Shown here in pieces: positions 1,589 to 33,421 of a DNA stretch of 33,466 nucleotides. The stretch is from Planctomycetaceae bacterium (GTDB lineage Bacteria; Planctomycetota; Planctomycetia; Pirellulales; Pirellulaceae), in NCBI GenBank assembly GCA_002862205.1, contig PKCN01000041.1, forward strand, positions 1 through 33,466, written 5' to 3'. How positions within the stretch are numbered: position 1 is the stretch's first letter; every line of letters starts with the position of its first letter. Below the pieces are notes generated by a model. That model worked only from the letters and a program-made list of their open reading frames with translations. It ran no database searches and was not told where the DNA came from. The translations under genes were made by a program, and so were the position numbers.

Positions 1589-3085
1589 ATGCGGATGTCG
1601 ATGGGCCTTCAGGCCCGACAATTGCAAACCCAAAAGCTGGCCCCCCGGATGATCCAGTCGATGGAGATTCTGCAGCTGCACGCGCTGGCTTTACAGGAAC
1701 GCATCGAACAGGAGATGAATGAGAATCCGCTGCTTGAACAGCAGGAGGTCGATCCGTTAGTACCGGAGGAGGCCAATGTTGAAGTCCCCACCAAAGACAC
1801 TCGCAGTGAGAACGAGAAAGAGCTTGTCGTTGATAATGATCACGACAACAAGGAAGACTTCGAACGTTTACAGAACATGGTGTCGGAGCTTCCCAACACC
1901 TTCGACGAGTCCTTCCGACGTTCTGCGAACCGGGTGCAGGAGGATGCGGATCGACGACATGACCTGATGGCGAATGCTGTTTCACGCCCCGAATCCCTGA
2001 ATGACTTCCTGCTGCACCAATTGTCCGAGATGGACATTGATGATCGAATCGAGCAGATTGCCGAGCGGATCATCAGCACTCTCGACGCGCGTGATGGTGG
2101 ATACTTGCGGACACCGCTCGCTGACCTCTTGCCTGCCGGACACACCGAAGAAGACTTGGAATTGGCCAAACAGGCACTGGCGGTCGTGCAGTCCCTCGAG
2201 CCTGCCGGAATTGCAGCACGCAACTTGAGCGAATGCCTTCTCAAGCAGATCAAAGGCTCCTTTTCGCATCACGATGAGATGCGCACCTTAATCGAGTCTC
2301 ATCTGGAAGATCTAGCGGAAAACCGATTGCCACAAATCGCCAAGAAAACCGGCTATAGCATCGATCTGATTCAGACCGTGCGTGACGAATTGCACGTTCT
2401 GAATCCAAAGCCAGGTGCGATGTTCATGGAAACCTACGTCCCGAACGTGACTCCTGACATCATTCTCGAACAGGACGACAATGGAAACTATTGTGTAAAA
2501 CTGGACGACGACCGAGTGCCAACGCTGTTCATCAGCGAGTACTACCGCAAGCGACTGCAGGATCCCTCAAGCACCCCTGCGGAGCGTGAGTTCATCAAAG
2601 GCAAAATCAACAGCGCCCAGTGGTTGATCGATTCAATCGAGCAAAGACGCAGCACCCTCACCAAAGTCGCCCAAGCGATTGTGGAACACCAAAAACGTTT
2701 CCTTGATGAAGGCCCCGAAGTCATTGAACCGCTAAAAATGCAGCAAATCGCTGACAAAGTTGGCGTCCACGTGACAACCGTCAGTCGTGCAGTGGACGAC
2801 AAATGGATTCAGACCCCACGAGGAATCCTACCTCTGAAACGGTTCTTTGTAGGTGGAACCCAAACCGATGACGGCGAAGACGTTGCTTGGGACACCATCC
2901 GCTTGAAACTGCAGGAATTGATCGACAAGGAAGATAAAAGCGATCCCTACAGCGACGAAAAGCTTGTCGAAGAGCTCAAGAAAACCGGTATGGCAGTGGC
3001 CCGACGCACGGTTACCAAATACCGCAAACGAATGGGGATCCCCAGCAGTCGACAGCGACGTGACTGGTCGCTGTCAAAGAAATAG
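1589..3085 (+). CDS. rpoN: RNA polymerase sigma-54 factor
   Basis: This is the alternative sigma factor that directs RNA polymerase to -24/-12 promoters and needs AAA+ activators. Region I is recognisable near the N-terminus as 'KLAPRMIQSMEILQLHALAL', followed by an acidic region II, the core-binding domain, a helix-turn-helix (DKVGVHVTTVSRAVDDKW) and the RpoN box (ARRTVTKYRKRMGIPSSRQRR) close to the end. The frame is open upstream to an ATG at 1532. I prefer the ATG at 1589 because homologues begin a few residues before region I and GAGAGA lies at a usable distance; starts at 1532, 1595 and 1601 remain possible. From 1589 the protein is 498 residues, normal for the family. It lies 3' of recR on the same strand, so it may extend the dnaX-ybaB-recR transcript. 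No activator is visible in the window. Confidence 0.96.
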   Translation: MRMSMGLQARQLQTQKLAPRMIQSMEILQLHALALQERIEQEMNENPLLEQQEVDPLVPEEANVEVPTKDTRSENEKELVVDNDHDNKEDFERLQNMVSELPNTFDESFRRSANRVQEDADRRHDLMANAVSRPESLNDFLLHQLSEMDIDDRIEQIAERIISTLDARDGGYLRTPLADLLPAGHTEEDLELAKQALAVVQSLEPAGIAARNLSECLLKQIKGSFSHHDEMRTLIESHLEDLAENRLPQIAKKTGYSIDLIQTVRDELHVLNPKPGAMFMETYVPNVTPDIILEQDDNGNYCVKLDDDRVPTLFISEYYRKRLQDPSSTPAEREFIKGKINSAQWLIDSIEQRRSTLTKVAQAIVEHQKRFLDEGPEVIEPLKMQQIADKVGVHVTTVSRAVDDKWIQTPRGILPLKRFFVGGTQTDDGEDVAWDTIRLKLQELIDKEDKSDPYSDEKLVEELKKTGMAVARRTVTKYRKRMGIPSSRQRRDWSLSKK

Positions 3086-11643: not shown

Positions 11644-11678
11644 CAGAAACACTCAACAATCCAGAAACACTCAACCCA
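11643..11678. repeat. 18-bp direct repeat, two copies, running into the DUF1552 3' end
   Basis: CCAGAAACACTCAACaat at 11643-11660 is repeated with three end changes at 11661-11678. The second copy overlaps the last codons and stop of the DUF1552 gene, so a 3'-flank repeat contributes to coding sequence. Confidence 0.8.
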
Positions 11679-13029
11679 GATTGTGCAGCAGACCAGTACT
11701 GTCACCAAAACGGCGTTCTTTCACTCCCATCTGCTTCATCATCCATAGATAAAGGTTACAAAGGGGCGTTCCATTCTTGTAACGGATGTGGCGTCCTGTC
11801 CTGATACGCCCACCAGCTTTGCCAGCCAAGATAATTGGTAGATCGTCATGGTTGTGCCGATCACCGTCACTGATACCACTACCATAAACAAGCATGGAAT
11901 TGTCCAACAAGGTCTTACCGTTATCTTCCAAAATTGAATCCAGTCGTTTCAGCAAATAGCTGAACCGGTCAATCTGAAAGCGATTGATCTTCGCAATATT
12001 GGCCTGCTTTTCTTTACTCTTCCCGTGGTGTGAGAGCGAATGGTGCCCCTGAGAGACCTCGATTTCCGGGTAGCTACGATTCGATCCTGCATTGGTGAAC
12101 ATGAACGACAGGATTCTGGTACTGTCGGTCTGCATCGCCAAAGCAACCATGTCCAACATCAGTTCAGCATGCTGACCGAGTTCCCTTGGGACACCACTGG
12201 GGCGAGGATAATCAGGCACACCATCCTCAGAGAGTCTCAGGCGATCGGCACCTGCGAGTCGTTTCTCGACATCACGGACCGAATAGAGATACTCATCCAA
12301 TTTCCGCTGATCAACAGCCGGCAATTTTCGATGCAGGTCCTTCGCATCTTCCAACACAAAATCCAACACACTCTTGCGATATTTCTCACGAACGCTTCTT
12401 GCCCGTCGCGTTGATTTTTCAGTCTGACCTCCAAACAACCGGTCAAATACAGCAGCAGGGTCGATCTCCTTTGCGACCGGATTGGTCGCTCCACGCCAAG
12501 ACATATTCGATGCATAAGCACAACTGTATCCACTATCGCAGTTCCCGGCTTGGGCGCTTGCTTCCAATCCCAACTCCAGTGAAGCAAAGCGAGTCGCATC
12601 CCCCACCTGCTCCGCGGTTGCCTGATCCACCGAGACTCCATTCTGGATATCGGCGCCATTGGTCTTGCGTGGATGAGCTCCTGTCAGAAATGACGCAACA
12701 CTGCGGGCATGATCACCACCGCCATCACCATGGGCTTTCGCGCCATCGAGTGCCAATCCGGAAAGAACATTCAATGATTTACGGTGTTCGGCAAGCCTTG
12801 CCAGCGTTGGTGGCAACTCAAAGCGAGTACCATCTTTGGTCGGCGTCCAGTCCGGCATATGCATTCCATTGGGCACATAAAAAAAACCCATTCGGAGCGG
12901 CATTTCATTTTCCCGCCCCGCTGCTGACAGCAACCGGGTTTCTGACATGGCAGCCAGCACCGGAAGTGCAACGGTTGTTCCCAACCCTCGCAAGACAGTT
13001 CGCCGCGAAAGCGTGTTAGGCATCTTCAT
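11671..13029 (-). CDS. Tat-exported DUF1552 (HXXSHH motif) protein
   Basis: This 452-residue protein begins with a twin-arginine signal (LSRRTVLRGLG, Arg9-Arg10, then a hydrophobic stretch), so it should be exported folded. It shows the DUF1552 pattern (PF07586) including the defining motif His330-Ser-Leu-Ser-His334-His335. The family has been placed near the alkaline phosphatase/sulfatase superfamily and has no proven reaction. Its start overlaps the stop of the upstream DUF1592-type gene by ATGA, showing translational coupling. The pairing of these two families is a standard planctomycete module, so they probably act together outside the cytoplasm. All expected parts are present. Confidence 0.93.
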   Translation of the reverse strand: MKMPNTLSRRTVLRGLGTTVALPVLAAMSETRLLSAAGRENEMPLRMGFFYVPNGMHMPDWTPTKDGTRFELPPTLARLAEHRKSLNVLSGLALDGAKAHGDGGGDHARSVASFLTGAHPRKTNGADIQNGVSVDQATAEQVGDATRFASLELGLEASAQAGNCDSGYSCAYASNMSWRGATNPVAKEIDPAAVFDRLFGGQTEKSTRRARSVREKYRKSVLDFVLEDAKDLHRKLPAVDQRKLDEYLYSVRDVEKRLAGADRLRLSEDGVPDYPRPSGVPRELGQHAELMLDMVALAMQTDSTRILSFMFTNAGSNRSYPEIEVSQGHHSLSHHGKSKEKQANIAKINRFQIDRFSYLLKRLDSILEDNGKTLLDNSMLVYGSGISDGDRHNHDDLPIILAGKAGGRIRTGRHIRYKNGTPLCNLYLWMMKQMGVKERRFGDSTGLLHNLG

Positions 13030-15341
13030 TCCCGGTACCCCTGTTTTTGAAAAGGATCACTGTTGATAATCCCGGCAATCAAATAGGCAAATTTATAATC
13101 ATGCTGCTGGGCTTCCAAAACAATCTGGTCCACAGCGCATTTGTCGTAATACTCTGTGCCACGGCCAATCGCATAGATCAATAGTTTCTCCGCCAAACAC
13201 CTGGTGAATTGATCTTTTCGTTCCGTGACCAGCATCTCTCGCAGCTCTCCAACTCCCCGGAACTTCGTGCCGTCAGGGAGTTTACCCGAGGCATCAATTT
13301 CCTCGCCACCCTCACGATCACGCCACAATCCAACGGCATCGTAATTCTCCAGTGCAAAGCCGAGAGGATCCATCATATTGTGACAGGCTGCACAAGCGGG
13401 ATTCGCTCGATGCTGTTCCATTCTCTCTCGAAGCGTGCCAGTGAGTCTTGCTTTTTCCAGCTCAGGAACATTCGGCGGCGCGGGTGGGGGTGGCGTGTTG
13501 AGCAGGTTTTCGAGAATCCACTTGCCACGTTTCACAGGACTGGTCCGGGTGGGGTCGCTGGTCACCGTGAGAATGCTTGCCTGAGTGAGCAATCCACCGC
13601 GCGGCGTTCCTTCCAGCGAAACTCTGCGAAACGCTGGACCTTGGACTCCGGCGACGCCGTAAAACTTTGCCAGTTGCTCGTTGAGATAGGTAAATTGCCC
13701 ATCCAACAAAGTCGTCACGGGCAAATTACCTCGCATGACTCCGGCAAAAAAAGTCAACGTTTCACGACGCATCAACTCTCTAATCTCATCGTTAAACACG
13801 TCAAATTTTCTGGCGTCAGGCCGGACCTGATCCAAATTGCGCAACTGGAGCCATTGACCCGCAAAATTTTTGACAAAACGATTCGCCCTTGGATCCCGCA
13901 ACATGCGAGCGATTTTATCAAGCAACCGCGCGGGCTCACGGAGTTGCCCACGATGGGCCAACAACAACAATTCATCATCTGGCATGCTGCTCCACAGGAA
14001 ATATGAAATCCGTGTTGCAAGTTCATATTGCGTGACGAGGGGCATCTTTCCCTGTGCATCCACCGCCTTCGGTGTTTCAACCTTGAACAGAAAATGTGGT
14101 GACACCAGGACTGCCTGAATCGCAACCTGGATGCCCTCCTCGAATCGACCTGAGTCAGCGCGTACTTGAGCCGCCAGTTCCACCAATCGCTCGACTTCCT
14201 GCGACGACGCCGGACGTCGGAAAGCACGACTGGCAAAACGTCCAAGGATTTCCGCGCTGGCTTGGTCTGGCGAAACCTTACCTCCCGGTGTCACAAAGAT
14301 CAACTTTTGATGACTGGCCGGAATTTTGGCGTCCGCTGTGATGAGCGCTCGTTTTTCCACCCCGCGTAGGTTCACGTGATGGAGATGGAGATTCCTATCC
14401 GCCTTTTTGGGGACGTAATAATCATTAATGAAACTGATCTCGACTCTGCGGGTTCCACGAACCAACCGTAGACGCAACTCAAAATCTTCTACCGTCTCCT
14501 TGGGTACCTCAATCACCTTGCGAAGCCTACCGCTATCGACCCTCATTTTGACAGGTTCATCACCACCCTGATCGCCGCTTGCGGCAATCGTCACGGTATA
14601 GGTCGCCGTGAAAGGCACATCACACTCCAATGCCACCGTGCCATGACTGGACAGCGTCACTCGCCCGCTTCCGGCTCCATATTTACTTGCACCAATCAAT
14701 TTCGAAGGATCCTGATCCACTTCGAAAACACGCGACGGCGGAGGCGTATAAATCGCTTCCCCCGTAATCACCTCGGCTGCATCAAGATACTTTTCAATCA
14801 ACAATGGAGGCATTGAAAGAACGTCTCCGATGTTGTCAAAACCATACCCCACATCATCTCCCGGAAAACCTTCAGATGCTTCGTAGTCGACACCTGTCAG
14901 ATCACGAACCGTGTTGCGATATTCCGCACGGTTCAAACGGCGTAGTGCAACCTTACCGGCATTTGGATTACTGACACAATCCACGGAGTTGACCAAACCG
15001 TCCAACAGAGTCAGCAACTGGTTTCGTGTTTCTGCGGCAAGAGTCTCACCGTCCTCGGGAGGCATCGTCCCCAAACGCACCTGAGCCATGGCCCGTACCC
15101 AGACACCTCGATCCTTTTTTATCTCTGCTGCCGTTCGGTACTTTTCCAATTCAACCTCGCTGCCTGGTCCATGGCAGTCGTAACAGTAAGTACGCAGAAG
15201 CGGTGCCAACTGAGCACGAAAAGCAGCGGCATCCTTGGCATCATCAGCGCGCACGACACCGCATGCTGCGACCACAAAGGCGGCACAGCTCAGCTTCAAA
15301 CCGACTGACTTTCTGAAATACATGAATGAATTGGGAATCAT
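13026..15341 (-). CDS. Planctomycete cytochrome c-domain protein (DUF1587-DUF1595-DUF1592-DUF1588-DUF1585)
   Basis: The protein of about 771 residues has a signal peptide (hydrophobic SCAAFVVAACGVV at about 18-30, cleavage near RADD). An N-terminal haem-binding motif follows at Cys53-Tyr-Asp-Cys56-His57 in 'YCYDCHGPG'. Then come DUF1587 ('LRRLNRAEYRNTVRDLTGVDY'), a beta-rich segment, DUF1595, DUF1592 ('TRISYFLWSSMPDDELL'), a second haem motif at Cys650-Ala-Ala-Cys653-His654 (DUF1588), and C-terminal DUF1585. The catalytic role is unknown; two c-type haem sites suggest electron transfer outside the cytoplasm. The frame is open to a TTG at 15362; I chose the ATG at 15341, and the ATG at 15323 is also possible. 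It is coupled to DUF1552 by ATGA. Confidence 0.92.
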   Translation of the reverse strand: MIPNSFMYFRKSVGLKLSCAAFVVAACGVVRADDAKDAAAFRAQLAPLLRTYCYDCHGPGSEVELEKYRTAAEIKKDRGVWVRAMAQVRLGTMPPEDGETLAAETRNQLLTLLDGLVNSVDCVSNPNAGKVALRRLNRAEYRNTVRDLTGVDYEASEGFPGDDVGYGFDNIGDVLSMPPLLIEKYLDAAEVITGEAIYTPPPSRVFEVDQDPSKLIGASKYGAGSGRVTLSSHGTVALECDVPFTATYTVTIAASGDQGGDEPVKMRVDSGRLRKVIEVPKETVEDFELRLRLVRGTRRVEISFINDYYVPKKADRNLHLHHVNLRGVEKRALITADAKIPASHQKLIFVTPGGKVSPDQASAEILGRFASRAFRRPASSQEVERLVELAAQVRADSGRFEEGIQVAIQAVLVSPHFLFKVETPKAVDAQGKMPLVTQYELATRISYFLWSSMPDDELLLLAHRGQLREPARLLDKIARMLRDPRANRFVKNFAGQWLQLRNLDQVRPDARKFDVFNDEIRELMRRETLTFFAGVMRGNLPVTTLLDGQFTYLNEQLAKFYGVAGVQGPAFRRVSLEGTPRGGLLTQASILTVTSDPTRTSPVKRGKWILENLLNTPPPPAPPNVPELEKARLTGTLRERMEQHRANPACAACHNMMDPLGFALENYDAVGLWRDREGGEEIDASGKLPDGTKFRGVGELREMLVTERKDQFTRCLAEKLLIYAIGRGTEYYDKCAVDQIVLEAQQHDYKFAYLIAGIINSDPFQKQGYRE

Positions 15342-15739
15342 ACTCTGGTGTTTGAAAAACAAACCAAACCGGTCTTAAGCTGACACTCAGCTCACCATCA
15401 ACATCACCCCCCAGCGACTGAGCACCAGTTGCCAACGGGGTCCTACGGCATAACCCATTCTACTCATGGCAACCCCAAGGAGAACTGTCAGCGAAACACC
15501 GAACTGCGGAAATTTGAAAAACGTGGCACCTTCATCCTGCTGATCCCCCTTTTGACTGATGTCATCCGGAGAACCCCTCAGGAAATTGGCATATCACAGC
15601 CAATCCCAGCCAACATTTGATTGATCGGAAACGGGTTCCTTTGCTCGACGAGTTCAAAACGCTCACGATCCTGAATCTCATGATCCTGAAAGCGCACCCA
15701 TCAACACGCAGCTAGTCGACAGATCGTGTACGCGAAGGG
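15342..15739. other. Divergent intergenic region between the two cytochrome modules
   Basis: About 400 bp separate the minus-strand DUF1592-type gene from the plus-strand PSCyt1 pseudogene. It must hold the promoter of the minus-strand operon and that of the DUF1501/pseudogene unit. I see no coding sequence, strong promoter match or repeat array here. Confidence 0.6.
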
Positions 15740-20151: not shown

Positions 20152-21252
20152 TCATTTTGCTGAGAACTTGAACACCGTAGTAGTGCGATACTCCTCACCC
20201 GGCTTTAAGATGGTTGAAGGAAAATTCTCCTGATTCGGGCTATCGGGATAATGCTGTGTTTCAAGGCAGAACCCGCCCCGGTGCACGTACGGTTTCCCTG
20301 ACTTGCCCTTCAAGCGACCGTCAAGAAAATTCCCGCAGTAAAACTGGATTCCTGGTTCAGTTGTCATAATCTCCATGACTCGCCCGGTGGTGGGTTCGTG
20401 AACAGAGGCTGCCATGGAGAGCCCATCACCTTCACGGTTGAGTACAAAGTTATGGTCAAATCCAAGACCAAACTCCAACTGCTCGTCCTTCTTGCCAATG
20501 TCACGTCCAATTGACTTTGCTGCAGTAAAGTCAAATGGCGTACCCGTCACAGAGGTCATTTCACCGGTAGGAATCGAGGTAGAATCCACAGGTGTGTATT
20601 TGGATGCATTGATCATCAGTTCGTGGTCAAGGATATTTCCTTCGCCCTCACCCTTGAGATTGAAGTAGGAGTGTTGGGTCAAATTGACTGGCGTCGCTTT
20701 GTCTGTGGTTGCCAGATAATCGACGATCAATTCGTTCGCATCGGTGAGTTTATAGGTCACTTTGATCGAAAGATTTCCTGGGTAACCTTCCTCTTTGTCC
20801 TTGGCGAGATAGCTCAGTTCCAAACCAGACCAGCCCTTCCCACCAACCAACTCAGCATCCCAAACCACCTTGTCGAATCCGATGACTCCGCCATGCAAAT
20901 GGTTTGGGCCGTTGTTCGTCGCCAGAGAATAGGTTTCGCCGTCGATCGTGAACTCGCCGTTTGCAATCCGGTTGCCATAACGACCAACGATTGCTCCAAA
21001 ATAGGGCTTGTCCACAGCATTGATGTAATCTTCAACACGATCATAACCAAGGGTAATATCGCCAAGTTTTCCATTTCGGTCTGGCACAAGAATGGCGGTC
21101 ACGATCGCGCCATAATTCGTGACTTTGACTTGCATGCCAGATTTGTTTGTAAACGTGTACAGTTTGATCGCGTCAAAATCTGTAACCCGTTGAGCCTGAG
21201 CAGCGCTGGCGAGAACAGCGAAGCAGACAAGAACAGCGAGCAGTTTCTTCAT
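20152..21252 (-). CDS. galM: Secreted aldose 1-epimerase (mutarotase)
   Basis: The 366-residue protein starts with a signal peptide (MKKLLAVLVCFAVLASAAQA, cleavage about residue 20) and then a complete galactose mutarotase fold. Active-site signatures are 'NNGPNHLHGG' (His118/His120), 'NLTQHSYFNL' (catalytic acid His194) and 'GGFCLETQHYPDSPN' (catalytic base Glu331). It interconverts alpha and beta anomers of aldoses such as galactose or glucose. Export places the reaction outside the cytoplasm, fitting a role on sugars released from a polysaccharide. It is the last gene of the minus-strand sulfatase cluster and runs into the terminator at 20091-20121. A gap of 227 bp from the preceding sulfatase leaves room for its own promoter. 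No strong ribosome site is seen. Confidence 0.94.
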   Translation of the reverse strand: MKKLLAVLVCFAVLASAAQAQRVTDFDAIKLYTFTNKSGMQVKVTNYGAIVTAILVPDRNGKLGDITLGYDRVEDYINAVDKPYFGAIVGRYGNRIANGEFTIDGETYSLATNNGPNHLHGGVIGFDKVVWDAELVGGKGWSGLELSYLAKDKEEGYPGNLSIKVTYKLTDANELIVDYLATTDKATPVNLTQHSYFNLKGEGEGNILDHELMINASKYTPVDSTSIPTGEMTSVTGTPFDFTAAKSIGRDIGKKDEQLEFGLGFDHNFVLNREGDGLSMAASVHEPTTGRVMEIMTTEPGIQFYCGNFLDGRLKGKSGKPYVHRGGFCLETQHYPDSPNQENFPSTILKPGEEYRTTTVFKFSAK

Positions 21253-21479: not shown

Positions 21480-23237
21480 TCAGTCGACGCGGGACAAAAT
21501 CACCTGATAAGGATCACCTTTACGTCCCTTAATCGAAGAACGAACGCGGACCTCCGCGTCGCCTTGAGCTACAGACACCCCCGGAATCACTAACCTGGTT
21601 TGACCGGCTTTGAGTGTGCCGCTGCGTGTCACAGGTCCGATTGACAAGCTAATCTCCATCGGGCCCACCGGTTGACTGAACACCACCTCAGCATTGAAAG
21701 TTGCAGGGCGTTCCACGTTTACCAGCCAAACTCCTGAAACCCCCCACCCCTCTGCGTTGCTGACCCGCCAATCCTGCAACGTCAACGAACTGACCAATTC
21801 CTTGTCAGAACCGATGACCATCCGCGGTGGCGCGTAGTTGTCGCTTCGGGTCGTGGATACATCATCGAACCATGCATCGTAAGCTTTGACCATCGCTGCG
21901 AGTTTTTCAGGCTTGGTCTCAGCCAGGTTAATCTTTTCTCCCTGATCATCCGACATGTCGTAAAGCTCAAAAGGAACACCTTCTGGCATTTCTTCTTTAC
22001 CGAATCCACTTGGGTGCACCAGTTTCCAACGCTGATTTCGAACTGCCATGTGGTGGTAGCGAACAGGTTGATCGCCACGATGCACCTGCAAAACCAGATG
22101 ACGGTCTGGCCATTCAGGACTTTTCCCTTCCAACAACGGCAGCAAACTTCGACCATCCAAAGTCACATCGTCAGGTAACTCAGCGCCCGCGGCATCAGCG
22201 ATGGTGGGCAACAGGTCAATGTGTGCCGCAATACGATCACTCACGGTTCCTGGATCAAGGCGAGCAGGCCACCGAACAAAAAACGGACTTCGAATCCCCC
22301 CCTCATGCACCATCGCCTTCATGCCTCGAAAAGGTCCGACAAAACGTAGTGAATTTGGTCCGTTGTCGACCAGAAAGATAACCATCGTATTATCGAATAG
22401 GCCCTGCTGTTTCAAATGCTGATCCAGCTTCCCAATGTTCTGATCAACGTTTTCGATCATTGCCGCAATTCTGGCTAATTGATCAACGTTTCCACGCTTC
22501 CCGACCATGATGGATTTCAGGTCAACCGTTTGGTAATACTCGTACAACTCCTGCGGGACATCGTGATAGGGTCCATGCGGTGCATTGGTAGGCAGGTAGA
22601 CAAAAAATGGCTTTTCCTCCTGCTTGCAACGATCGATGAATCGCATGGCCGCATCGAAGTACAGATCAGTACAGTAACCCTCTGTTTCGATTTGCTCTCC
22701 ATTTTCAACCAGAATCGGGTTGGTATATCGCTTCTGGTTTTCGATTGGCTCGGATGGTTGAGCCAATCCACCACCGCGATGAATGTAAGACTCATCAAAA
22801 CCCTGATCATTGGGACGCAACGGATAGTTGTCACCCAGATGCCACTTGCCGAAGATTCCTGTGGCATATCCAGCTTCCTGAAGGACTTCCGCGACCGTTA
22901 CCTCATTGGGCTCCATCATCGATCGTCCCTTGAACGTATCAACCACTCGCGTTCGATAGTGGTACCTACCCGTCATTAACGAAGCACGAGTCGGTGAACA
23001 AACCGGACACACATAAAAGTCGGACATGGAGGCACTGTTTTTGGCCAGCGCATCAATGTTTGGTGTGCGGATCACAGAATTCCCGGTCACACCATGGTCA
23101 CCATACCCCTGATCGTCGGGCATGATCACCACAATATTCGGACGGTCAGTATCAGCCGCTTCCAGCACATGACCGAACATCGCATCTGCGGTGAAAAAGA
23201 TTCCCACCAGGACCAAGGGCAGCGAACGTAATTGCAT
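21480..23237 (-). CDS. Secreted arylsulfatase with C-terminal beta-rich extension
   Basis: This type I (formylglycine) sulfatase is 585 residues from the ATG at 23237. The frame is open to 23369 and overlaps the neighbouring gene there, but the signal peptide (MQLRSLPLVLVGIFFTADAMFG) starts at 23237. The metal site begins with Asp41-Asp42. The residue to be converted to formylglycine is Cys80 in Cys80-Ser-Pro-Thr-Arg84, and 'GIFGKWHLGDN' supplies the sulfate-binding Lys and His. 'VDNGPNSLRF' gives the later metal ligands. After the usual sulfatase fold about 85 extra residues form a beta-rich tail ('GVSGVWLVNVERPATFNAEVVFSQPVG...'), possibly a carbohydrate-contact domain. It lies 49 bp after the next sulfatase in the same transcript. 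The substrate is unknown. Confidence 0.94.
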   Translation of the reverse strand: MQLRSLPLVLVGIFFTADAMFGHVLEAADTDRPNIVVIMPDDQGYGDHGVTGNSVIRTPNIDALAKNSASMSDFYVCPVCSPTRASLMTGRYHYRTRVVDTFKGRSMMEPNEVTVAEVLQEAGYATGIFGKWHLGDNYPLRPNDQGFDESYIHRGGGLAQPSEPIENQKRYTNPILVENGEQIETEGYCTDLYFDAAMRFIDRCKQEEKPFFVYLPTNAPHGPYHDVPQELYEYYQTVDLKSIMVGKRGNVDQLARIAAMIENVDQNIGKLDQHLKQQGLFDNTMVIFLVDNGPNSLRFVGPFRGMKAMVHEGGIRSPFFVRWPARLDPGTVSDRIAAHIDLLPTIADAAGAELPDDVTLDGRSLLPLLEGKSPEWPDRHLVLQVHRGDQPVRYHHMAVRNQRWKLVHPSGFGKEEMPEGVPFELYDMSDDQGEKINLAETKPEKLAAMVKAYDAWFDDVSTTRSDNYAPPRMVIGSDKELVSSLTLQDWRVSNAEGWGVSGVWLVNVERPATFNAEVVFSQPVGPMEISLSIGPVTRSGTLKAGQTRLVIPGVSVAQGDAEVRVRSSIKGRKGDPYQVILSRVD

Positions 23238-23286
23238 GGGAACATCAGTTTCAAATTGGAACAAAGAAATAACACACGGCAAGATC

Positions 23287-24690
23287 TTACTTTTTCTTAT
23301 TCTTTTTTCGCCGCACTGCGCGTTTGGTTTTTGCTGGAAAGTAGGACGACTCTGTTCTCGCAGAATCAAGAAAAGCCTCTAGTTTGTGCACCGTTTCAGG
23401 ATTCGCCTTGGCGACATTGTCCTGTTCACCCGGATCAGTTTTGAGGTCATACAATTCCAACGGTTCTTCAGTGCCAAAACGAATCCCTTTCCAGTCGCCG
23501 AACCGCACGGCTTGTTGAAACGGAGAATGAATCTCCCAATAGTGCATTTGCCTGGACTGCTGCTTCTTTCCTGTCAGTGTTGGAAGGACGGACATACCAT
23601 CAAGATGCGATGGAGACTCGACACCGGCCAAATCACACAAGGTTGGAAAGACATCCCGCATGTCCCACACAAAATCACTTTCTTTTCCTGCGGGAACGTG
23701 CCCAGGCCATCTCACACCCATCGCCGCACGAATCCCTCCCTCGTAAAGCATCCGCTTCACACCGCGCAACCCTCCAGAGCTCTCGATCGCCTTGGCAAAG
23801 AGTGGGTTGGGTCCATTGTCAGAGGTGTAAAAAACGATTGTATCCTCATCAATTTCCAACTCTTTCAAAAGATCCATCACCTTGCCGATGGTCTGATCGG
23901 TACGTGTCACCATCGCCGCATAATGCTGCACCTGAGCGCCCCCCGGAATTCCGTCATACATTGCAAAAGCGGGATCGCTTGTGGGAATGATGTAGGCACC
24001 ATGTGGCGGCGTGACTGCAAGGTAAAGGAAAAACGGTTTCTCGTGATGCTCACGGATCAGTTGCAGGGCTTTTTCTTCCTGTTGATAGGGAATATAGATC
24101 TCTTTTTTTCCACTCTGGTTACCGGGCAGCGAGATCATTTCTCCACCATCCCAAATCTCGTCGGGAAAATGGTCATGAGCATGCACCTGATCCAGATATC
24201 CGTACCAATAATCAAAGCCCTGTTTCTCGGGGACTCCGCTCGACCCGGGATTCCCCAACCCCCACTTGCCAACGCCGGCTGTGAAGTAACCGGCTTTCTT
24301 CAGCGTCTCAGCGACCGTCACATCATCGTCTTCAAGGAACACTAACGGCCGCCCGTTTTTCTCGCTGAGTTCCTGAACCCGCGCTTTGGCCGTATTGTCT
24401 CGCCGTCGACAGTGACCCGTGTGTAATCCTGTCATCAAAACACATCGTGTTGGCGCACAAACAGCCGATCCCGAATAGTGATCCGTGAACCTCATGCCCT
24501 CAGCACAGAGGCGATCAAAGTTCGGTGTTTTGATGTGCGGCGAACCAAAGGCACTGAAATCGCCATACCCGGCATCATCAAGCATCACGTAAATGATATT
24601 CGGTTTTCCGTCACTGGCCTCAGCCGTAATAGCACTGAATGCTATGGAGAATCCCAACACGAAGATCATCGCCAAAAAAACTGACTTCAT
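23287..24690 (-). CDS. Secreted sulfatase with polycationic C-terminus
   Basis: The 467-residue protein begins at ATG 24690 with a signal peptide (MKSVFLAMIFVLGFSIAFSA); an upstream ATG at 24717 is less likely. It is a formylglycine sulfatase with Asp38-Asp39 and Cys78-Ala-Pro-Thr-Arg82. The usual GKWHLG motif reads GKWGLG, as it does in the sulfatase at 25394-26833. The two also share 'GYL(D/N)QVHAH' and are paralogues. This branch is often labelled arylsulfatase or N-acetylgalactosamine-6-sulfatase; substrate cannot be assigned. The last residues, KTKRAVRRKKNKKK, are almost all basic, which could hold the enzyme to acidic polysaccharide or the cell surface. It sits in the middle of the co-directional cluster. 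Confidence 0.94.
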   Translation of the reverse strand: MKSVFLAMIFVLGFSIAFSAITAEASDGKPNIIYVMLDDAGYGDFSAFGSPHIKTPNFDRLCAEGMRFTDHYSGSAVCAPTRCVLMTGLHTGHCRRRDNTAKARVQELSEKNGRPLVFLEDDDVTVAETLKKAGYFTAGVGKWGLGNPGSSGVPEKQGFDYWYGYLDQVHAHDHFPDEIWDGGEMISLPGNQSGKKEIYIPYQQEEKALQLIREHHEKPFFLYLAVTPPHGAYIIPTSDPAFAMYDGIPGGAQVQHYAAMVTRTDQTIGKVMDLLKELEIDEDTIVFYTSDNGPNPLFAKAIESSGGLRGVKRMLYEGGIRAAMGVRWPGHVPAGKESDFVWDMRDVFPTLCDLAGVESPSHLDGMSVLPTLTGKKQQSRQMHYWEIHSPFQQAVRFGDWKGIRFGTEEPLELYDLKTDPGEQDNVAKANPETVHKLEAFLDSARTESSYFPAKTKRAVRRKKNKKK

Positions 24691-24754
24691 TTTTTCTCTT
24701 TTCACATCCAGGTGCATTTTTCATGGATACAAGACAACGAACGCATTGAACAAA

Positions 24755-25231
24755 TCAGGCATTGGGAGTCTCAGCGATCACGATTGATACAGGAATGTTT
24801 GTCATCCATTCTGCCAGCCGCTTGCGAAAATCCGCTTCCTGCCCCCCAACAATTTTCCAGCCTTCCAGACGAGCCTCAAGAGCAACTCGAATCCGAGCCA
24901 AACTGGAATCAAGCAATCCCATGATCACGGCTTCAACATCAGCAAGAATGTCCTGCGGTTCAAAGCCGACACGATCACGCTGCTTGTTCCTTGCCAACTC
25001 ACACAGTCTACCCTGAATCGCCGCATAACGCTTGCCTTGATGAAACACTCGCCGCAACTCCAAAGTTGCGTTGAACTGGAATACTGGATCTGCCCCGAAA
25101 TAGAAACTGGCTTGCCCCTGCGATCGGAAACCGATCACAACGACAACATCGTCAATCAGAACTTCAGCTCGTAGTGCCATCTGCTTTCCATCTCTCAGCA
25201 GATCTTCCCGATCCTGTTCCTGTTTCGCCAT
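24755..25231 (-). CDS. Uncharacterised planctomycete protein within the sulfatase cluster
   Basis: The product of 158 residues has no signal peptide and no membrane segment, unlike every other protein in this cluster. It begins 'MAKQEQDREDLLRDGKQMALRAEV' and contains 'VVVVIGFRSQGQASFYFGADPVFQFN'. Its second half is helical and charged ('RIRVALEARLEGWKIVGG'). I believe similar short proteins occur in other planctomycetes but know of no function. The frame opens at a GTG at 25243 and passes an ATG at 25240; I chose the ATG at 25231 because GGAG lies 11 bases upstream and the conserved sequence starts there. It lies 64 bp before the next sulfatase, so is probably co-transcribed. Confidence 0.8.
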   Translation of the reverse strand: MAKQEQDREDLLRDGKQMALRAEVLIDDVVVVIGFRSQGQASFYFGADPVFQFNATLELRRVFHQGKRYAAIQGRLCELARNKQRDRVGFEPQDILADVEAVIMGLLDSSLARIRVALEARLEGWKIVGGQEADFRKRLAEWMTNIPVSIVIAETPNA

Positions 25232-25253
25232 CGCGCGCATCACTCCAAAGCAA

Positions 25254-25393: not shown

Positions 25394-26833
25394 TCAACGC
25401 CTAAATGCCCTGCCACGGATTTTCCAACTGGGGTGGGGAACATGCGCTTCGTCCATCATTCTGGCAGCAGCATCGACGAGAGCGGGTTTTTCTTCCGCCA
25501 CATTATCTTTTTCTCCAATATCATTTTTCAGATCGTACAGTTCGATGGTTCCCGTCAACATTGGCTGACGGATCGCCTTCCAGTCACCAAAACGCACAGC
25601 CTGTCGGCTCCCCTGTTCGTAAAACTCCCAATACAGGTAGTTGTGTTGTTTCTGCCGCTGTGACTCTCCTTTGAGTGTCGGCACGAAACTGATGCTATCG
25701 ACACTCGGGGGCAGTTTCGCGCCCGCCAATTCTGCGGCGGTCGCCATCCAGTCACCGAAGTACCCTACATAGTCTGTGCTGGTTCCAGCGGGAACGGTGC
25801 CGGGCCACCAAGCAATCGTCGGCACTCGAATGCCTCCTTCATACAACGCCCGTTTTGTACCTCTGAGTGGCCCGGATGGATTGAATCGTTTCAGATCATG
25901 TCCAGCCTCGTCATGAGGTCCGTTATCGCTCGTGAAGAACACCAACGTGTCGCCATCAATCCCCAAAGCTTTCAGGTGATCAAGAATTCGGCCAACATCA
26001 CGATCCATCCGCGTGATCATCGCAGCTTGCCCCTTATCTGCATCGGGCCAATTTTCAGTTGCATAAATACCATAGTCGGGAACTTCCGCCCCGTTGCCAG
26101 TCATCCGCGTGCCTTCATTGTTGGCATGCGGGATTGTCAAAGGTAGGTAGAGAAAGAAGGGGGCCTCGCTGTTAGTCTCGATAAACTTAATTGCCTCTTC
26201 GACAAACAAATCATGTGAATAGTCAATTCGCTTGGTTGCTGCACCACCTCGAAACCCTCCGTAAGATCCCCCCGCCTGCTCAACCACATTTGCCAGAATC
26301 TTCTTATCTGCATTATCCCAGACGAATTCAGGGTAATAGTTGTGGGCATGAACCTGGTTCAGATAACCAAAGAAGCGATCAAAACCCTTCCGCAGTGGAA
26401 ACCCGGGCTGTTGAACCTCGCCCAAACCCCATTTTCCAACAAGGCCGTTGGTATAACCCGCTGACTTCAAAACCTCTGCCACAGTCGCATCCTGGGCACG
26501 CAGAGACTGCTCTAGCATCGTGCCACTGTTTGCATTCCCTCGCACATGCGTGTGCCCCATGTGTCGCCCTGTCATCAACACACTCCGACTCGGAGCGCAT
26601 ACCGTATTGCCGGCATAGAATTGAGTGAACTTCATTCCCTCCAGAGCCATCTGGTCGAGCCTCGGCGTAGCGATCACCTTCTGACCAAAACAACCAACAT
26701 CTCCGTAGCCCAGATCATCCGCCATGATAAAGATCATGTTGGGCTGTTCACCATCAATGGATGGTTCATCCGCACAGCAGAATCCGAAACTCAATGCAAC
26801 GATGATTGCACTGGCAAACGCTGAAACCTTCAT
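25394..26833 (-). CDS. Secreted sulfatase, paralogue of the sulfatase at 23287-24690
   Basis: The 479-residue protein starts at ATG 26833, where AAGGAAAG lies 6 bases upstream; the ATG at 26851 encodes six extra residues before the signal peptide and is less likely. The signal peptide ([20 protein letters not shown]) is followed by Asp39-Asp40 and the formylglycine motif Cys79-Ala-Pro-Ser-Arg83. '[16 protein letters not shown]' and '[19 protein letters not shown]' tie it closely to the sulfatase two genes downstream, with which it probably arose by duplication. '[15 protein letters not shown]' carries late metal ligands. The substrate is a sulfated glycan by context only. Confidence 0.95.
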
Positions 26834-26909
26834 AAAAAACTTTCCTTTCATTGAACATGTATCTCATTGAACATGCACCGCGAGACAGACTCTGAATAGC
26901 CCAAGGCGA

Positions 26910-28409
26910 TTAATTTTGCGGTTGATCCCACAATCGGTAGGGATCATCAAGTCGTCGCTGCTCAGACAGCAACAACGCTTCCATTTCTTTTCTCTTCGCT
27001 GAATACTTTGGATCATCTGCAAGATTCAACTGATGACTTCCAGGGACACTGCCAGTCAACGAATTGACAACGGGAGCGTGATGCTGCGAAAGAAACTCGT
27101 GTGGATTTTCTCGCAAATTGAACAATTGTGTTTTCTGAACGGCACCGTCCATCACATCGTACTTGATCAACTTCCAATCACCCTTCTTGACACAGCGTAT
27201 TCCGGGCTTTGTCCCGCCACAATAAACACCGTAAAGTACTTCACGAATCGCGTCACGCTCACCCTCAAGAACAGGCTCAAAGCTGTGCCCCTCATTGGTG
27301 ACGGGTGGTTCAATGCCCGCCAAATCGCAGAGTGTGCTCAGAACATCCAGCAGATAAACGTTTCCCGTCGCACGACTACCGGATGAAATCCCCGGACCTT
27401 TTACAATCAAAGGCACTCGCCAAGTATGCTGATAAAGATTCTGCTTGCCCTGCAAACCATGTCGACCAATCGCCATGCCGTGGTCAGCGGTATAGATCAC
27501 ATAAGTGTTATCAAGCTCTCCCAGTGAATCCAAACGCTTCAGCACTCGCCCGATTTGTCGATCAATATTTTCATCACACGCAAATTCACGCCCCAATTCA
27601 TTTCGAATGGTCTGGGGATCCCGTCGCTCCCAAACCCCACTCACACTGACTTCATCACGAAGACCGGGATGCCCATGATGAAAAGGGTGTGCGGGCAAGT
27701 AGTTGACAGGTAATTCGGGTTGCCTGGCGTTTTCAGGCGGCAAGGTCTTTCGATCCTTATGATTCACCGCTCCATACTTTGCCAACAAATCCTCTGTTCC
27801 ATCGCGCGTATCGTGCGGATGGGAAAAGCCAAGGTAGATCAGAAAAGGATCATCACCTTGTCGATCGTTCAAGTAATCCAAAACCTGGTCAGCATGCCAT
27901 GCACTCCCTGTCTCCCTCGTACCACCTCGCTTAGTCGCGGTACGACTGACTTGGAATTTCGCGTTCGCTGCCGCATAACTGTTGCCATTTTTACAAGTCC
28001 GCATCGTGTCGTATCCTGCACGATTAAACACGGCAGCCATCGTATTTTCCGGAAGATCGGCAGGTGCAAACGAAGGTTTGGCATCCGCGCCCCGTTTTCT
28101 GGAACCACGTCGTGGCAGATGCCATACCGTACGTCCCGACATGATCATGTGCCGCGATGGAGTACAGACAGCACCTGCCCATGACCCCATGTGATAGGCC
28201 CCATCAAACACCATTCCCTCGGCTGCCAACTGATCAATTACCGGCGAATCAAGTTTTGAGCGGGAGTTGTAAACTTTGAGATCAAAAGGCGACTGATCGT
28301 CCACAAGCACAAACAGAAAATTGGGACGTTTCACTTCCTCGGCAAAGGAGGCCACACTCAACATCAAGCATGAAGCGATAACGAGGAAACGGCGATCAGC
28401 AAGTGACAT
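26910..28409 (-). CDS. Secreted sulfatase of a distinct subfamily
   Basis: The 499-residue protein begins at ATG 28409, with GGAAA 8 bases upstream and a signal peptide directly after it (RRFLVIASCLMLSVASFA). The frame is open further to 28493, but that extension shows no export signal. The metal site begins Asp37-Asp38 and the formylglycine motif is Cys82-Thr-Pro-Ser-Arg86 in 'HMGSWAGAVCTPSR'. The loop expected to hold GKWHxG instead reads 'GYDTMRTCKNGNSYAAAN', so it belongs to a different branch from the three downstream sulfatases and should have a different substrate. 'YTADHGMAIGRHGLQGKQN' supplies a later metal site with His rather than Asn. It lies 76 bp before the next sulfatase. Confidence 0.94.
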   Translation of the reverse strand: MSLADRRFLVIASCLMLSVASFAEEVKRPNFLFVLVDDQSPFDLKVYNSRSKLDSPVIDQLAAEGMVFDGAYHMGSWAGAVCTPSRHMIMSGRTVWHLPRRGSRKRGADAKPSFAPADLPENTMAAVFNRAGYDTMRTCKNGNSYAAANAKFQVSRTATKRGGTRETGSAWHADQVLDYLNDRQGDDPFLIYLGFSHPHDTRDGTEDLLAKYGAVNHKDRKTLPPENARQPELPVNYLPAHPFHHGHPGLRDEVSVSGVWERRDPQTIRNELGREFACDENIDRQIGRVLKRLDSLGELDNTYVIYTADHGMAIGRHGLQGKQNLYQHTWRVPLIVKGPGISSGSRATGNVYLLDVLSTLCDLAGIEPPVTNEGHSFEPVLEGERDAIREVLYGVYCGGTKPGIRCVKKGDWKLIKYDVMDGAVQKTQLFNLRENPHEFLSQHHAPVVNSLTGSVPGSHQLNLADDPKYSAKRKEMEALLLSEQRRLDDPYRLWDQPQN

Positions 28410-28634
28410 CAATTGATTTCCATGAATAGGTAAGTAACAGAAACGGCGAGCGGGGAACCGAGCCCCAACCGGGCGAACCGGATCGAGTGCCAACGAGCCC
28501 CCAAGCCCATGATAACCGACTCAATCGGTGCAAGCTTTTGAACTTTGGACACTGAGACAAAGGATCCGCATCTCAACGACTGCCCCAGTTGCAACACGTC
28601 GGCCGCACACAACAACGGGCGTTACGTCAAAGGC

Positions 28635-31337
28635 TCAGGGCAAGGGATTCTCGAACCAGACGACATTCTTACTGGCGTGCCCTGCAATCAACAAATCAAG
28701 GTCATAATCCCCATCCATATCAACTGCACGGATATCGTAGGCTCCCTGATTGCTACCGACCTCGCGACGAACAAAGTTTCCATCGCCATCGTTCGCATAC
28801 CAAACCGCCATGCCATCAGCTTCTTTACCACATGTTGCGATATCCAGATCACCATCCTCATCCAGATCAACGGTTACCAAGCAGTGTGGCCCGACGATTT
28901 CGGGATCGATTTCGATGCGACTGAATTCTGGGGCACGGAACCACAGCACCCCCCGGCCATGTCCCCGAGTTGCAACAAAATCCATCTTGCCATCCTGATT
29001 CAGATCACGCGGCTGAATATTCGTTGCCCCGGGCTGCCTCGAAGCCAACAGATGCTTTTTCCATGGCTCAGTCTGATTGGGTAACTGTTCCCACCAGGCA
29101 AACCATTCCCCTCCTTCAAAACCGGGGCCACCTTTTGCTGCACAGGAAATATCCGGCAAACCATCACCATTGACATCTGCGATCCCGGTGTAGTGGTTAC
29201 CGCCAGGTGCGTCACGGTCAGCGAACACATGCCGCTTCCAAGGCTCAGAGTTCCTGGGATTCTCCGGCACCTCAAGCCAGGTCAATGAATTCGGGATACT
29301 GGTTTGGGCTGGCCCACGTCCTGAGTTTGCGATCAAGTCGAGACGTCCATCCCGATTGACGTCGCCGGTAATCAAACAATGAGTACCAAGGATCTCATCA
29401 TCGATGGTTCGGTAGGTCCACGCGTCGCCAGAGAACGGATCATCGGGACACTCAAGCCAGAACACGGTGTTGCTGGATCCACAAAAATCCAGATCGCCGT
29501 CATGATCAACATCGAGCAGGCAGCTGTGAATGCAATCAGGCCGTGGCTTGTTGCGAGAGTTGTCTCGACTGAAGGCATGCAGTTGATACGCATCCCAATT
29601 CGGCCCTCGATGCAACACCACTTTGCCATCATAGGATGAGAGCACATCCACATGCCCATCATCATCAAAATCAGCTGACACAGCGGAGTTCACGTTACCT
29701 TTTGCGTGCGCGACCACATGCTTGCGCCACGGTTCAGACTTGCCTGAAAGCGGCACGAACGCTGGCTGATTTGCAACTGCGGGCAGGTCATCGACAAATC
29801 CGGCGTCCGTCCTGCGGAGTTCCTCAACCGCTTGACGTCGCATCGTCCTCAGCCTGGCCTGATGCGTGGACTCCGCTGCTAGATTGACCAGTTCACCAGG
29901 GTCACGGGAAATATCGTAGAGTTCTTCAGTCTCACCAGAAACGAGTGTCCTGACATATTTGTAGTGACCTTGCGCTAACATCACGTACCAGGGGATACCT
30001 GGACCGTGATACAAGGCTGCCTCGTCTTTCCCGGGAATCTGATTGGTCGCGGAGCCATACCGTTTTCCTGTATGCACAAGCATCGCAGGATGTGGCCAGT
30101 TCTTTTTCTCGTCCGTCAACAGTGGACTCAGATCACGTCCATGCATTTTCCACGGAAGCTTGACCCCAGCCTGAGCAAAAAAGGTAGGAGGCAGATCCAC
30201 GCCGCTCACCGGTGCATCGACAACGACACCACGACCTCGCTTTGATGACGCCGGTCCCGCGGGGCGGATGATCAACGGTGCTGCAACAGCAGCATCATGA
30301 GGAGCGACCTTACTTTTCATTCCGTGCTGGCCCCAGGCGAATCCTTGATCGGAGGTAAAAACGACAAGCGTATTTTCAAGCTGCCCGGTTTTGCGAAGCG
30401 AATCCATCAATCGCCCTACATTTTCATCAATGGCCAAAACGCCTTGATGGTATTGACGTACCCAATCGGAAAGGGGACGTCCTGGTCGATCCTTCATTCC
30501 AACTGGACTTGACTCGCGAACCTTCCGTTCAACCGGCTCACCGTTCTTACCGGGCTCCCAAAACTCCATTTTTTGAACATAGGCTGGCTTGCCGGGGCGG
30601 GGCGGGTACACATCAACTGGAACGGGGACCTCGATTCCTGCATAATCCTGCTGATGTCGCAAAGCGGGTGTGAAAGGCCCATGCACAGCACCGTAACACA
30701 GCCACAAATACCACGGCTTGTCCTGTCCGCGTGCCTCACTCTGAATGAAATCCATTGCCCAATCGGTGTAGTTGTCAGTGGTGTAACCATCGACCATCAC
30801 CGGCTCACCACCATCGGTAGAGATCAACTGTTTGTCATAATAATTCGGGGCGTTGTCCGGATGACGCGGTCGATTCCAGACCTTCTGGTGGTCCCAATCC
30901 CTTCCGAAGCCAGCATCAACACCGGTATGCCACTTGCCAATGTGCGCAGTGACGTAACCTTGCTGCCTGAGCACGGACGGCCAGAAACGGCACTGTTCCG
31001 GATCATAAGCACTGCCAGGATAAGGTCCCTCCATTCGCATCGACTCGATTCCATGCTGATGGTGCCCTGTCAACAAAGTCGCACGGGACGGCATGCACCA
31101 AGACCCGATGTAGGCACGCCGAAAACGCACCCCCTCGCGAGCCAACTGGTCGATATTTGGCGTCTGAACCCAGTCAAACGCATCGTCGTAACAGCTGACG
31201 GTGCGATGTGATTGATCGTCGGTATAGATGAACAAAATGTTTGGCCGCTTGGCCGTGGCAGGCTCAATGTGAGCCAACTGAACGCTCAGCAGGACTGCAA
31301 CAAACTGAAGCAAATGCAATCTTCGCCAGAAGGACAT
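28635..31337 (-). CDS. Secreted sulfatase fused to a seven-repeat FG-GAP/VCBS-type beta-propeller
   Basis: This 900-residue protein starts at ATG 31337, with AGGCGG about 7 bases upstream, and a signal peptide (LLQFVAVLLSVQLAHIEPATA). Residues about 30-510 form a formylglycine sulfatase: Asp40-Asp41, Cys81-Met-Pro-Ser-Arg85, 'AHIGKWHTG' (Lys135, His137), His219 and 'FTSDQGFAWGQHG' (Asp330). Residues about 530-900 hold seven calcium-loop motifs of DxDxDGxxD type starting at Asp556, 609, 659, 721, 778, 824 and 873, spaced about 46-62 residues. Inter-motif segments repeat 'EPWKRHVF'-like sequence and 'VLWFRAP/VVWFENP' strands. Seven units fit a seven-bladed propeller, likely for glycan binding or surface contact. 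It is first in the cluster. Confidence 0.95.
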   Translation of the reverse strand: MSFWRRLHLLQFVAVLLSVQLAHIEPATAKRPNILFIYTDDQSHRTVSCYDDAFDWVQTPNIDQLAREGVRFRRAYIGSWCMPSRATLLTGHHQHGIESMRMEGPYPGSAYDPEQCRFWPSVLRQQGYVTAHIGKWHTGVDAGFGRDWDHQKVWNRPRHPDNAPNYYDKQLISTDGGEPVMVDGYTTDNYTDWAMDFIQSEARGQDKPWYLWLCYGAVHGPFTPALRHQQDYAGIEVPVPVDVYPPRPGKPAYVQKMEFWEPGKNGEPVERKVRESSPVGMKDRPGRPLSDWVRQYHQGVLAIDENVGRLMDSLRKTGQLENTLVVFTSDQGFAWGQHGMKSKVAPHDAAVAAPLIIRPAGPASSKRGRGVVVDAPVSGVDLPPTFFAQAGVKLPWKMHGRDLSPLLTDEKKNWPHPAMLVHTGKRYGSATNQIPGKDEAALYHGPGIPWYVMLAQGHYKYVRTLVSGETEELYDISRDPGELVNLAAESTHQARLRTMRRQAVEELRRTDAGFVDDLPAVANQPAFVPLSGKSEPWRKHVVAHAKGNVNSAVSADFDDDGHVDVLSSYDGKVVLHRGPNWDAYQLHAFSRDNSRNKPRPDCIHSCLLDVDHDGDLDFCGSSNTVFWLECPDDPFSGDAWTYRTIDDEILGTHCLITGDVNRDGRLDLIANSGRGPAQTSIPNSLTWLEVPENPRNSEPWKRHVFADRDAPGGNHYTGIADVNGDGLPDISCAAKGGPGFEGGEWFAWWEQLPNQTEPWKKHLLASRQPGATNIQPRDLNQDGKMDFVATRGHGRGVLWFRAPEFSRIEIDPEIVGPHCLVTVDLDEDGDLDIATCGKEADGMAVWYANDGDGNFVRREVGSNQGAYDIRAVDMDGDYDLDLLIAGHASKNVVWFENPLP

Positions 31338-33230: not shown

Positions 33231-33304
33231 GCCAGCGTAGCTTCAATTGGCAGAGCATCGCATTCGTAATGCGGAGGTTGTGGGTTCAAATCCCACCGCT
33301 GGCT
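33231..33304 (+). tRNA. tRNA-Thr (anticodon CGT)
   Basis: The sequence folds as a complete tRNA. The 7-bp acceptor stem GCCAGCG/CGCTGGC (33231-33237 with 33297-33303) is perfect. The D arm is GCTT...AGAGC, the anticodon stem TCGCA/TGCGG carries the loop TTCGTAA, and the T arm is GTGGG-TTCAAAT-CCCAC. The anticodon CGT reads the Thr codon ACG. CCA is not encoded; the base after the acceptor stem is T. A TTTT run follows at 33306-33309. Confidence 0.95.
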
Positions 33305-33421
33305 CTTTTCGTGCTAGGTATTCTGACAGAGAATGAATCACCGTTTGCGAATGTCGTTTGAAGTCGCAGCGATTCAATCCCACAAACGCTTGATAGCCCC
33401 TTGGGCAGGAGACTCGTCTCT

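Follow-up and report, generated by a model that had tools for sequence, protein, structure and literature searches.

A stretch of 33,466 nucleotides from a planctomycete genome (Planctomycetaceae bacterium, assembly GCA_002862205.1, contig PKCN01000041.1; hereafter the window) codes, at positions 28635-31337 of the minus strand, for a protein of 900 amino acids in one open reading frame (ORF) with an ATG start, in which an N-terminal S1 sulfatase is joined to a C-terminal beta-propeller. This gene opens an array of genes that all run in one direction, and its place at the head of the cluster agrees with an earlier note on this DNA; four further sulfatases, a small ORF conserved in relatives and an aldose 1-epimerase follow (Table 1). 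Pfam places the sulfatase family PF00884 on residues 32-392 (E 2.1e-40, 139.4 bits for a cut-off of 25) and FG-GAP_3 (PF13517) on four separate stretches of the C-terminal part (E 1.7e-25, 89.8 bits for a cut-off of 26.9). S1 sulfatases are defined by the formylglycine motif C-x-P/A-x-R and the SDxG motif. The complete formylglycine sulfatase recognised in the earlier note is indeed present, with CMPSR at residues 81-85 together with TDDQ 39, GKWH 134, VHGPF 218 and SDQGF 329. Since its best solved relative is the N-acetylglucosamine-6-sulfatase 5g2v (E 5.5e-53), its substrate may fairly be guessed to be a 6-O-sulfated hexose. The sulfatase domain, with its formylglycine and SDQG motifs, is shared with 5g2v, with the mucin-desulfating 7p24 and with the exo-L-galactose-6-sulfatase 7lha, but these chains of 518-534 residues have no space for a propeller, in contrast with the 900 residues of the fusion. 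From the aspect of its N-terminus, the protein is probably secreted. The fusion recurs without internal stop in seven further genes of six other genomes of the genus, at 81-87% identity; it is therefore real, and an assembly or frame error was discarded as its source.

Within the 373 C-terminal residues there are seven matches to D-x-[DNS]-x-D-x-x-x-D, at propeller positions 29, 82, 132, 194, 251, 297 and 346, and the first 527 residues contain none; when the C-terminal part was shuffled 20,000 times, the mean number of matches was 0.13 and the maximum 5. The DxDxDG-type loops announced for these approximately 370 residues are thus there, the last one without its G, and their metal-type ligands are conserved in all seven loops across the propeller family (56-row alignment). 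An AlphaFold2 model of the propeller, built on a 20-row alignment, predicts a closed ring of 28 strands (7 x 4) with a predicted local distance difference test score (pLDDT) of 92.3 and a predicted template modelling score (pTM) of 0.91, in agreement with the seven blades anticipated from the sequence; judged from strand order in the model, strand 1 (residues 11-17) completes the last blade. The full-length model was poor (mean pLDDT 72.9, pTM 0.48, sulfatase rows badly aligned; two other alignments, A4 and A5, were worse and left unused), so that we make no statement on the packing of the two domains. Foldseek ranked KICSTOR first, then the fungal aldos-2-ulose dehydratase (AUDH), CRTAC1 and integrins, with the AUDH entries 4a7y, 4a7k and 4a7z at ranks 2, 4 and 19; among the 50 rows shown, AUDH had the highest TM-score over the query (0.74-0.75, the next being 0.69).

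AUDH, from Phanerochaete chrysosporium (PF22301), is the closest enzyme found. It resembles the fused domain as a seven-bladed FG-GAP/VCBS propeller with four histidines in equivalent columns of a joint alignment, but it lacks a sulfatase and is 16% identical to the window's propeller (Foldseek). At the sequence level, a profile of 12 propellers searched against PDB chains ranked AUDH first (whole-sequence E 2.5e-6), a 20-row profile ranked it second (E 1.1e-12), behind CRTAC1, and two relatives (L067, 33.7 bits; L068, 27.5 bits) pass the cut-off of 27 for PF22301, AUDH_beta_propeller. Because AUDH did not stay in register when aligned directly (two of the three MAFFT modes drifted farther along the sequence, and global HHalign slipped by two blades), we brought in a bridging family of bacterial AUDH-type propellers, composed of one protein from the window's own genome (L228) and 19 relatives. 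HHalign joined this bridge to AUDH residues 78-389 with an E-value of 2.2e-18 and to the fused-propeller family with an E-value of 1.7e-28 over 338 columns.

The joint alignment comprised 56 family propellers (rows chosen at >40% identity and 330 aligned residues), the 20 bridging propellers and the AUDH fragment. In nine of its columns, AUDH has the same residue as both families, each of which keeps it in 95% or more of its rows. Trp accounts for three of these columns, Asp and Gly for one each and His for four, and each of the four His is present in 56/56 family rows and 20/20 bridge rows. These four histidines (H126, H188, H266 and H291 in propeller numbering) are also kept in five extra family members, three of them fused to a hydrolase or an esterase; by contrast, 0/16 other FG-GAP proteins of the same genome carry more than one of them, in a control of distinct proteins drawn from the 30 best-scoring FG-GAP loci and placed by MAFFT with one 420-residue stretch each. 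Together with K208 and Y340 they make up a single asymmetric centre of invariant residues, and not repeated inter-blade sites. On the model, DSSP places all six in BC loops, in strand A or immediately ahead of it, the four His either in a BC loop or immediately ahead of strand A; by propeller topology, they are on the face opposite the AB metal loops. Since the family keeps the four His of the AUDH propeller, the domain looks like a second enzyme site rather than a sticky anchor. The PDB titles of AUDH mention ‘active site metal depleted’ and ‘complex ... ascopyrone M’.

Both halves have relatives welded to other partners. Other sulfatases of this lineage, with 50-53% identity to that of the window, bear at their C-terminus a metallo-beta-lactamase fold (L078, 2029-4674, minus strand, genome G048; L254, 1972-4566, plus strand, G557), a 3-keto-disaccharide hydrolase domain (L257, 1482-3725, minus strand, E 4e-44, G559) or a SASA carbohydrate esterase (L258, 319-2631, plus strand, E 4.4e-67, G030); they are alike in sulfatase kinship and in the C-terminal place of the addition, but the added domain differs in each kind. 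On the propeller side, a SASA carbohydrate esterase is fused to a propeller of this family in L252 (2124-4220, plus strand, G566) and L253 (1969-4044, plus strand, G598), so that SASA is linked to both halves, and an alpha/beta hydrolase precedes a family propeller in L061, L062 and L063 (genomes G004, G006 and G015) and in L251. Every fusion partner recognised by Pfam is a member of an enzyme superfamily; the extra residues ahead of the propeller in L209 (~150) and L227 (~120) gave no match. These partners come from frames longer than the match, which is not an even survey (long frames of, for example, G453, G556 and G595 lie outside it), and two of the eight loci fetched for partners (L251-L258) have unfused sulfatases (L255 and L256).

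In the genus, the propeller family occurs in 20 of 22 genomes; it is fused to a sulfatase in eight genes of seven genomes and to an alpha/beta hydrolase in three genomes. In a sample of the phylum, the family was found at E-values up to 1e-60 in at least 17 of 392 genomes, the window's own included (up to five candidates scored per genome), and, the window excepted, none of the matches listed lies in a frame longer than 523 residues. Among the matches listed for 199 genomes of the taxonomic family (four candidates scored per genome), all full-length ones come from this genus. The search across planctomycetes suggested in the earlier note thus recovers the architecture in the genus itself and, among the matches listed, nowhere outside it, and we discarded the idea of a family-wide trait. 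The propeller without regard to partner is known from Planctomycetota and, by record titles, from Verrucomicrobiota and one Acidobacteria bin. The eight sulfatase-fused rows come together as one clade of the propeller tree (support 100/100), nested in a group of 12 rows with the three hydrolase-fused ones and L064. In the sulfatase tree (22 rows, leaving out the second copy of genome G005), seven fused rows form one clade, with weaker support (93/93), next to L072 of genome G012, a sulfatase without propeller inside the same cluster. In these trees the fusion is young, a single recent event. Genome G005 has two near-identical copies of the fusion gene (L076 and L077, contigs C41 and C140), by duplication or assembly redundancy.

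We consider it somewhat probable that the fusion is a secreted enzyme with two sites, an S1 sulfatase site and a metal-dependent, sugar-modifying propeller site; secretion, metal, catalysis, substrate and order of the steps are what we infer. The sulfatase would remove a sulfate ester from a sugar. In the propeller, calcium-type ions would play a structural role in every blade, bound in its AB loop; the four invariant histidines, placed around the central channel on the opposite face, would hold a catalytic divalent metal. As for the reaction, we would guess first at an elimination or dehydration of the lyase type, assisted by the metal, on a sugar in oxidised (keto) form that the sulfatase might unmask either before or after the propeller step; the AUDH propeller is taken here to act in this way on aldos-2-uloses. 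The sister sulfatase fused to a 3-keto-disaccharide hydrolase, together with the aldos-2-uloses, keto sugars which we take to be the substrates of the AUDH propeller, suggests by analogy that an oxidised sugar is the substrate shared by both sites.

Several points weigh against a two-site enzyme. The four-histidine match depends on the bridging family: when AUDH was added directly in three MAFFT modes, its H155 fell on H126 in all three and its H295 on H266 in one, and H215 and H337 fell on H188 and H291 in none. In the HHalign comparison with the bridge, H126, H266 and H291 match exactly, and H188 is two residues off the bridge's His. The AUDH fragment is devoid of blade 1 and most of blade 7, whose columns are therefore outside the comparison. 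Moreover, of seven distant propellers (~25% identity), four combine H188, H266 and H291 with a Glu at the position of H126, one has H126, H266 and H291, and two have none; since they keep part of it, part of the set may be an old structural feature. The bridge has none of K208, H77 and Y340, and the AUDH fragment also lacks K208 and H77, so that the reaction may differ from that of AUDH. It is also our assumption that a catalytic metal is bound in the AUDH propeller, with H155, H215 and H337 as ligands, as Claesson et al. reportedly described in 2012 (J Mol Biol 417:279). Similar Foldseek E-values were obtained for propellers that are not catalytic (KICSTOR, CRTAC1, integrin). PF22301 does not match the propeller of the window, even when E-values up to 10 are allowed, and matches 3 of the 12 members scanned; likewise, phmmer with this propeller as a single sequence found no propeller among PDB chains at E-values up to 10. 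Pfam gave only sulfatase-type and FG-GAP matches in the fusion, without the cupin and lectin domains, the latter C-terminal, that AUDH presumably carries. Finally, no sugar oxidoreductase was recognised among the 20 ORFs of the window that were scanned.

The main rival to a two-site enzyme, unlikely in our judgement and still to be taken seriously, is a docking or lectin module: the propeller would use its loops to bind a glycan or a surface partner and hold the sulfatase on its substrate, the four His being a structural metal site. As far as the part of the VCBS survey considered here goes (PMC8023676), AUDH, PVL, TcB and integrins form one VCBS supercluster, which includes lectins such as PVL (Psathyrella velutina lectin) as well as integrins and often keeps company with interaction domains. 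The Foldseek list is accordingly rich in binding propellers, integrins and an Agrocybe aegerita lectin among them, three of the four His are found also in distant propellers of unknown role, and binding modules, too, spread by swapping partners. However, the same part of the survey describes, besides the DxDxDG motif, a GW motif in DA' loops that forms the sugar pockets of PVL- and tachylectin-type lectins (PMC8023676), and this motif occurs 0 times in the 373 propeller residues. PVL and the integrin-alpha propellers share with the fused domain the seven blades and the DxDxDG metal loops (PMC8023676, same part), but they have repeated sites where the fused propeller has one asymmetric invariant centre. 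The four His are, in addition, the same as those of an enzyme, and most relatives listed lie in frames of ~370-520 residues, which leaves no room for a further enzyme that the propeller could dock. Of the proposal in the earlier note, the FG-GAP/VCBS sulfatase-propeller fusion with one metal loop per blade therefore stands, whereas glycan binding, surface docking or tethering to neighbouring enzymes loses its place as leading role, given the asymmetric centre, the lack of GW motifs and the fusion of relatives of both halves to catalytic domains.

An improbable alternative is that two genes of one pathway simply became joined in a sulfatase-rich locus, with co-expression as the only gain and a propeller activity unrelated to the step of the sulfatase. 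It draws on another genus, g350, where the orthologous sulfatase (58-60% identity, with the motif CAASR) and propeller (57-59%) are neighbours as separate, divergent genes, ~4 kb apart, in five loci (L259-L263). DUF1552-type and PSD-type genes lie between the two halves, with an alpha/beta hydrolase at the far side, as judged from Pfam runs in L082 and, for the hydrolase only, L259. Part of one locus is masked, and L262 very probably represents the same record as L082. This far-side BD-FAE enzyme is not the hydrolase fused elsewhere (short alignments, 24-38%). Seven g350 genomes are listed with a match; besides those of the five loci, G571 has the halves on different contigs and G578 has no listed place. 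The same alternative draws on the non-sulfatase-fused loci of the fused propellers' clade, in which a sulfatase lies within 5 kb in 10 of 12; in the large sister clade, 3 of 20 loci have one (Fisher p 2e-4; 8/10 and p 1e-3 without near copies); among these neighbouring sulfatases, only that of L082 is the orthologue of the fused one. This comparison is post hoc, made after the tree from hand-typed counts and unequal flanks; one miss (L065) is a 4.9-kb contig, and the comparison leaves out 8 of the 28 rows of the second clade, L193 of the first, and a small third group, in which two of six loci were looked at (L057 was not). Against a mere joining of neighbours, the stop-free fusion has been kept in eight genes of seven genomes, at 81-87% identity to the window's, and fusions to other enzyme domains exist. 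The propeller might also be degenerate or have a structural role alone, lending stability to the secreted protein through calcium; this would fit the conserved ligands of the seven loops, but is very improbable given the invariant polar residues on the face away from these loops and the persistence of homologues without sulfatase.

Beyond this protein, we tentatively propose, as a possibility that we hold to be less than even, that the propeller family represents uncharacterised bacterial metal-dependent sugar lyases or dehydratases built on the four-His centre of AUDH, and that planctomycetes weld it, or 3-keto-disaccharide hydrolases and carbohydrate esterases, to one sulfatase lineage as two-step enzymes that would couple the removal of sulfate (or acetyl) with the eliminative breakdown of an oxidised sulfated sugar. 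We found no description of a sulfatase plus FG-GAP propeller architecture, nor a description or characterised member of a bacterial AUDH-type propeller, in the open-licence literature, and the part of the VCBS survey considered here describes no sulfatase fusion (PMC8023676). A sulfatase lineage welded to different candidate second enzymes offers testable hints on the fate of the sugar after sulfate loss. What use planctomycetes make of their many sulfatases is a long-standing puzzle. Our analysis points to a family of four-His propellers in Planctomycetota and beyond. As separate observations, L228 (positions 1060-2343, plus strand, contig C20 of the window's own genome) is a stand-alone AUDH-type propeller with a PF22301 match of 63.9 bits and the four His in 20/20 rows of its family, which also matches the lambda-carrageenase propeller PF25292 (34 bits), and four distant propellers (L094, L098, L101 and L110, ~25% identity), with H188, H266 and H291 kept and Glu for H126, hint at a wider family of metal-centre propellers.

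Table 1. The fusion gene, its candidate functional residues and its neighbours (window positions; residue numbers of the fusion protein, those of the propeller in brackets)
Feature	Position	Strand	Basis or remark
Fusion protein, S1 sulfatase plus seven-bladed propeller, 900 aa	28635-31337	-	ORF, Pfam, recurrence in seven genomes of the genus, own included
Signal-peptide-like N-terminus, aa 1-29	31251-31337	-	By eye: basic start, hydrophobic run, A-T-A ahead of K30
S1 sulfatase domain, aa 28-527	29757-31256	-	PF00884; solved relative 5g2v
Formylglycine motif CMPSR, aa 81-85	31083-31097	-	Motif match in sequence
Propeller domain, AUDH-type, aa 528-900	28638-29756	-	AlphaFold2 model, Foldseek, HMM comparisons
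Metal loop blade 1, DFDDDGHVD	29646-29672	-	Loop pattern
Metal loop blade 2, DVDHDGDLD	29487-29513	-	Loop pattern
Metal loop blade 3, DVNRDGRLD	29337-29363	-	Loop pattern
Metal loop blade 4, DVNGDGLPD	29151-29177	-	Loop pattern
Metal loop blade 5, DLNQDGKMD	28980-29006	-	Loop pattern
Metal loop blade 6, DLDEDGDLD	28842-28868	-	Loop pattern
Metal loop blade 7, DMDGDYDLD	28695-28721	-	Loop pattern; Y replaces the usual G
H604 (H77)	29526-29528	-	55/56 in family, Cys in bridge
H653 (H126), AUDH H155	29379-29381	-	56/56 in family
H715 (H188), AUDH H215 in joint alignment	29193-29195	-	56/56; other alignments 2-3 or more residues off
K735 (K208)	29133-29135	-	56/56 in family
H793 (H266), AUDH H295	28959-28961	-	56/56; 1/3 direct AUDH additions agree
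H818 (H291), AUDH H337	28884-28886	-	56/56; 0/3 direct AUDH additions agree
Y867 (Y340)	28737-28739	-	56/56 in family
Second sulfatase	26910-28493	-	PF00884; orthologue adjoins the fusion in five loci compared (L073-L077)
Third sulfatase	25394-26851	-	PF00884
Small ORF between third and fourth sulfatase	24755-25243	-	No Pfam match; 54-66% identical in loci of four relatives
Fourth sulfatase	23287-24717	-	PF00884
Fifth sulfatase	21480-23369	-	PF00884; start codon uncertain, overlaps preceding gene
Aldose 1-epimerase, after the sulfatases	20152-21252	-	PF01263, E 3.3e-92
PSD-type planctomycete protein with internal CBM60 xylan-binding module	13026-15362	-	Adjoins DUF1552 gene
DUF1552 gene	11671-13029	-	Same PSD/DUF1552 pair type between sulfatase and propeller in g350
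tRNA-Thr (CGT)	33231-33305	+	tRNA call

The sulfatase array recurs around the fusion in L073-L077, as far as contigs or fetched stretches reach. Its first gene had also been suspected of nucleating the system, an idea that we abandoned because genome G012 has orthologues of the sulfatases S1, S3, S4 and S5 in a cluster whose first sulfatase (L072) carries no propeller. The genome to which the window belongs has at least 150 sulfatase matches (the best 150 of 281 candidates scored, with the window's own sulfatase scoring just below those listed) and at least 117 FG-GAP_3 matches (150 of 221 candidates scored); when the two listings were compared by eye, no second gene with both in one frame was seen. 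Near propellers of the family, a Gfo/Idh-type oxidoreductase gene occurs at L065, L066, L068 and L088, and a 3-keto-disaccharide hydrolase gene at L068 and L083, which we take as a hint only, since both families are common in planctomycetes.

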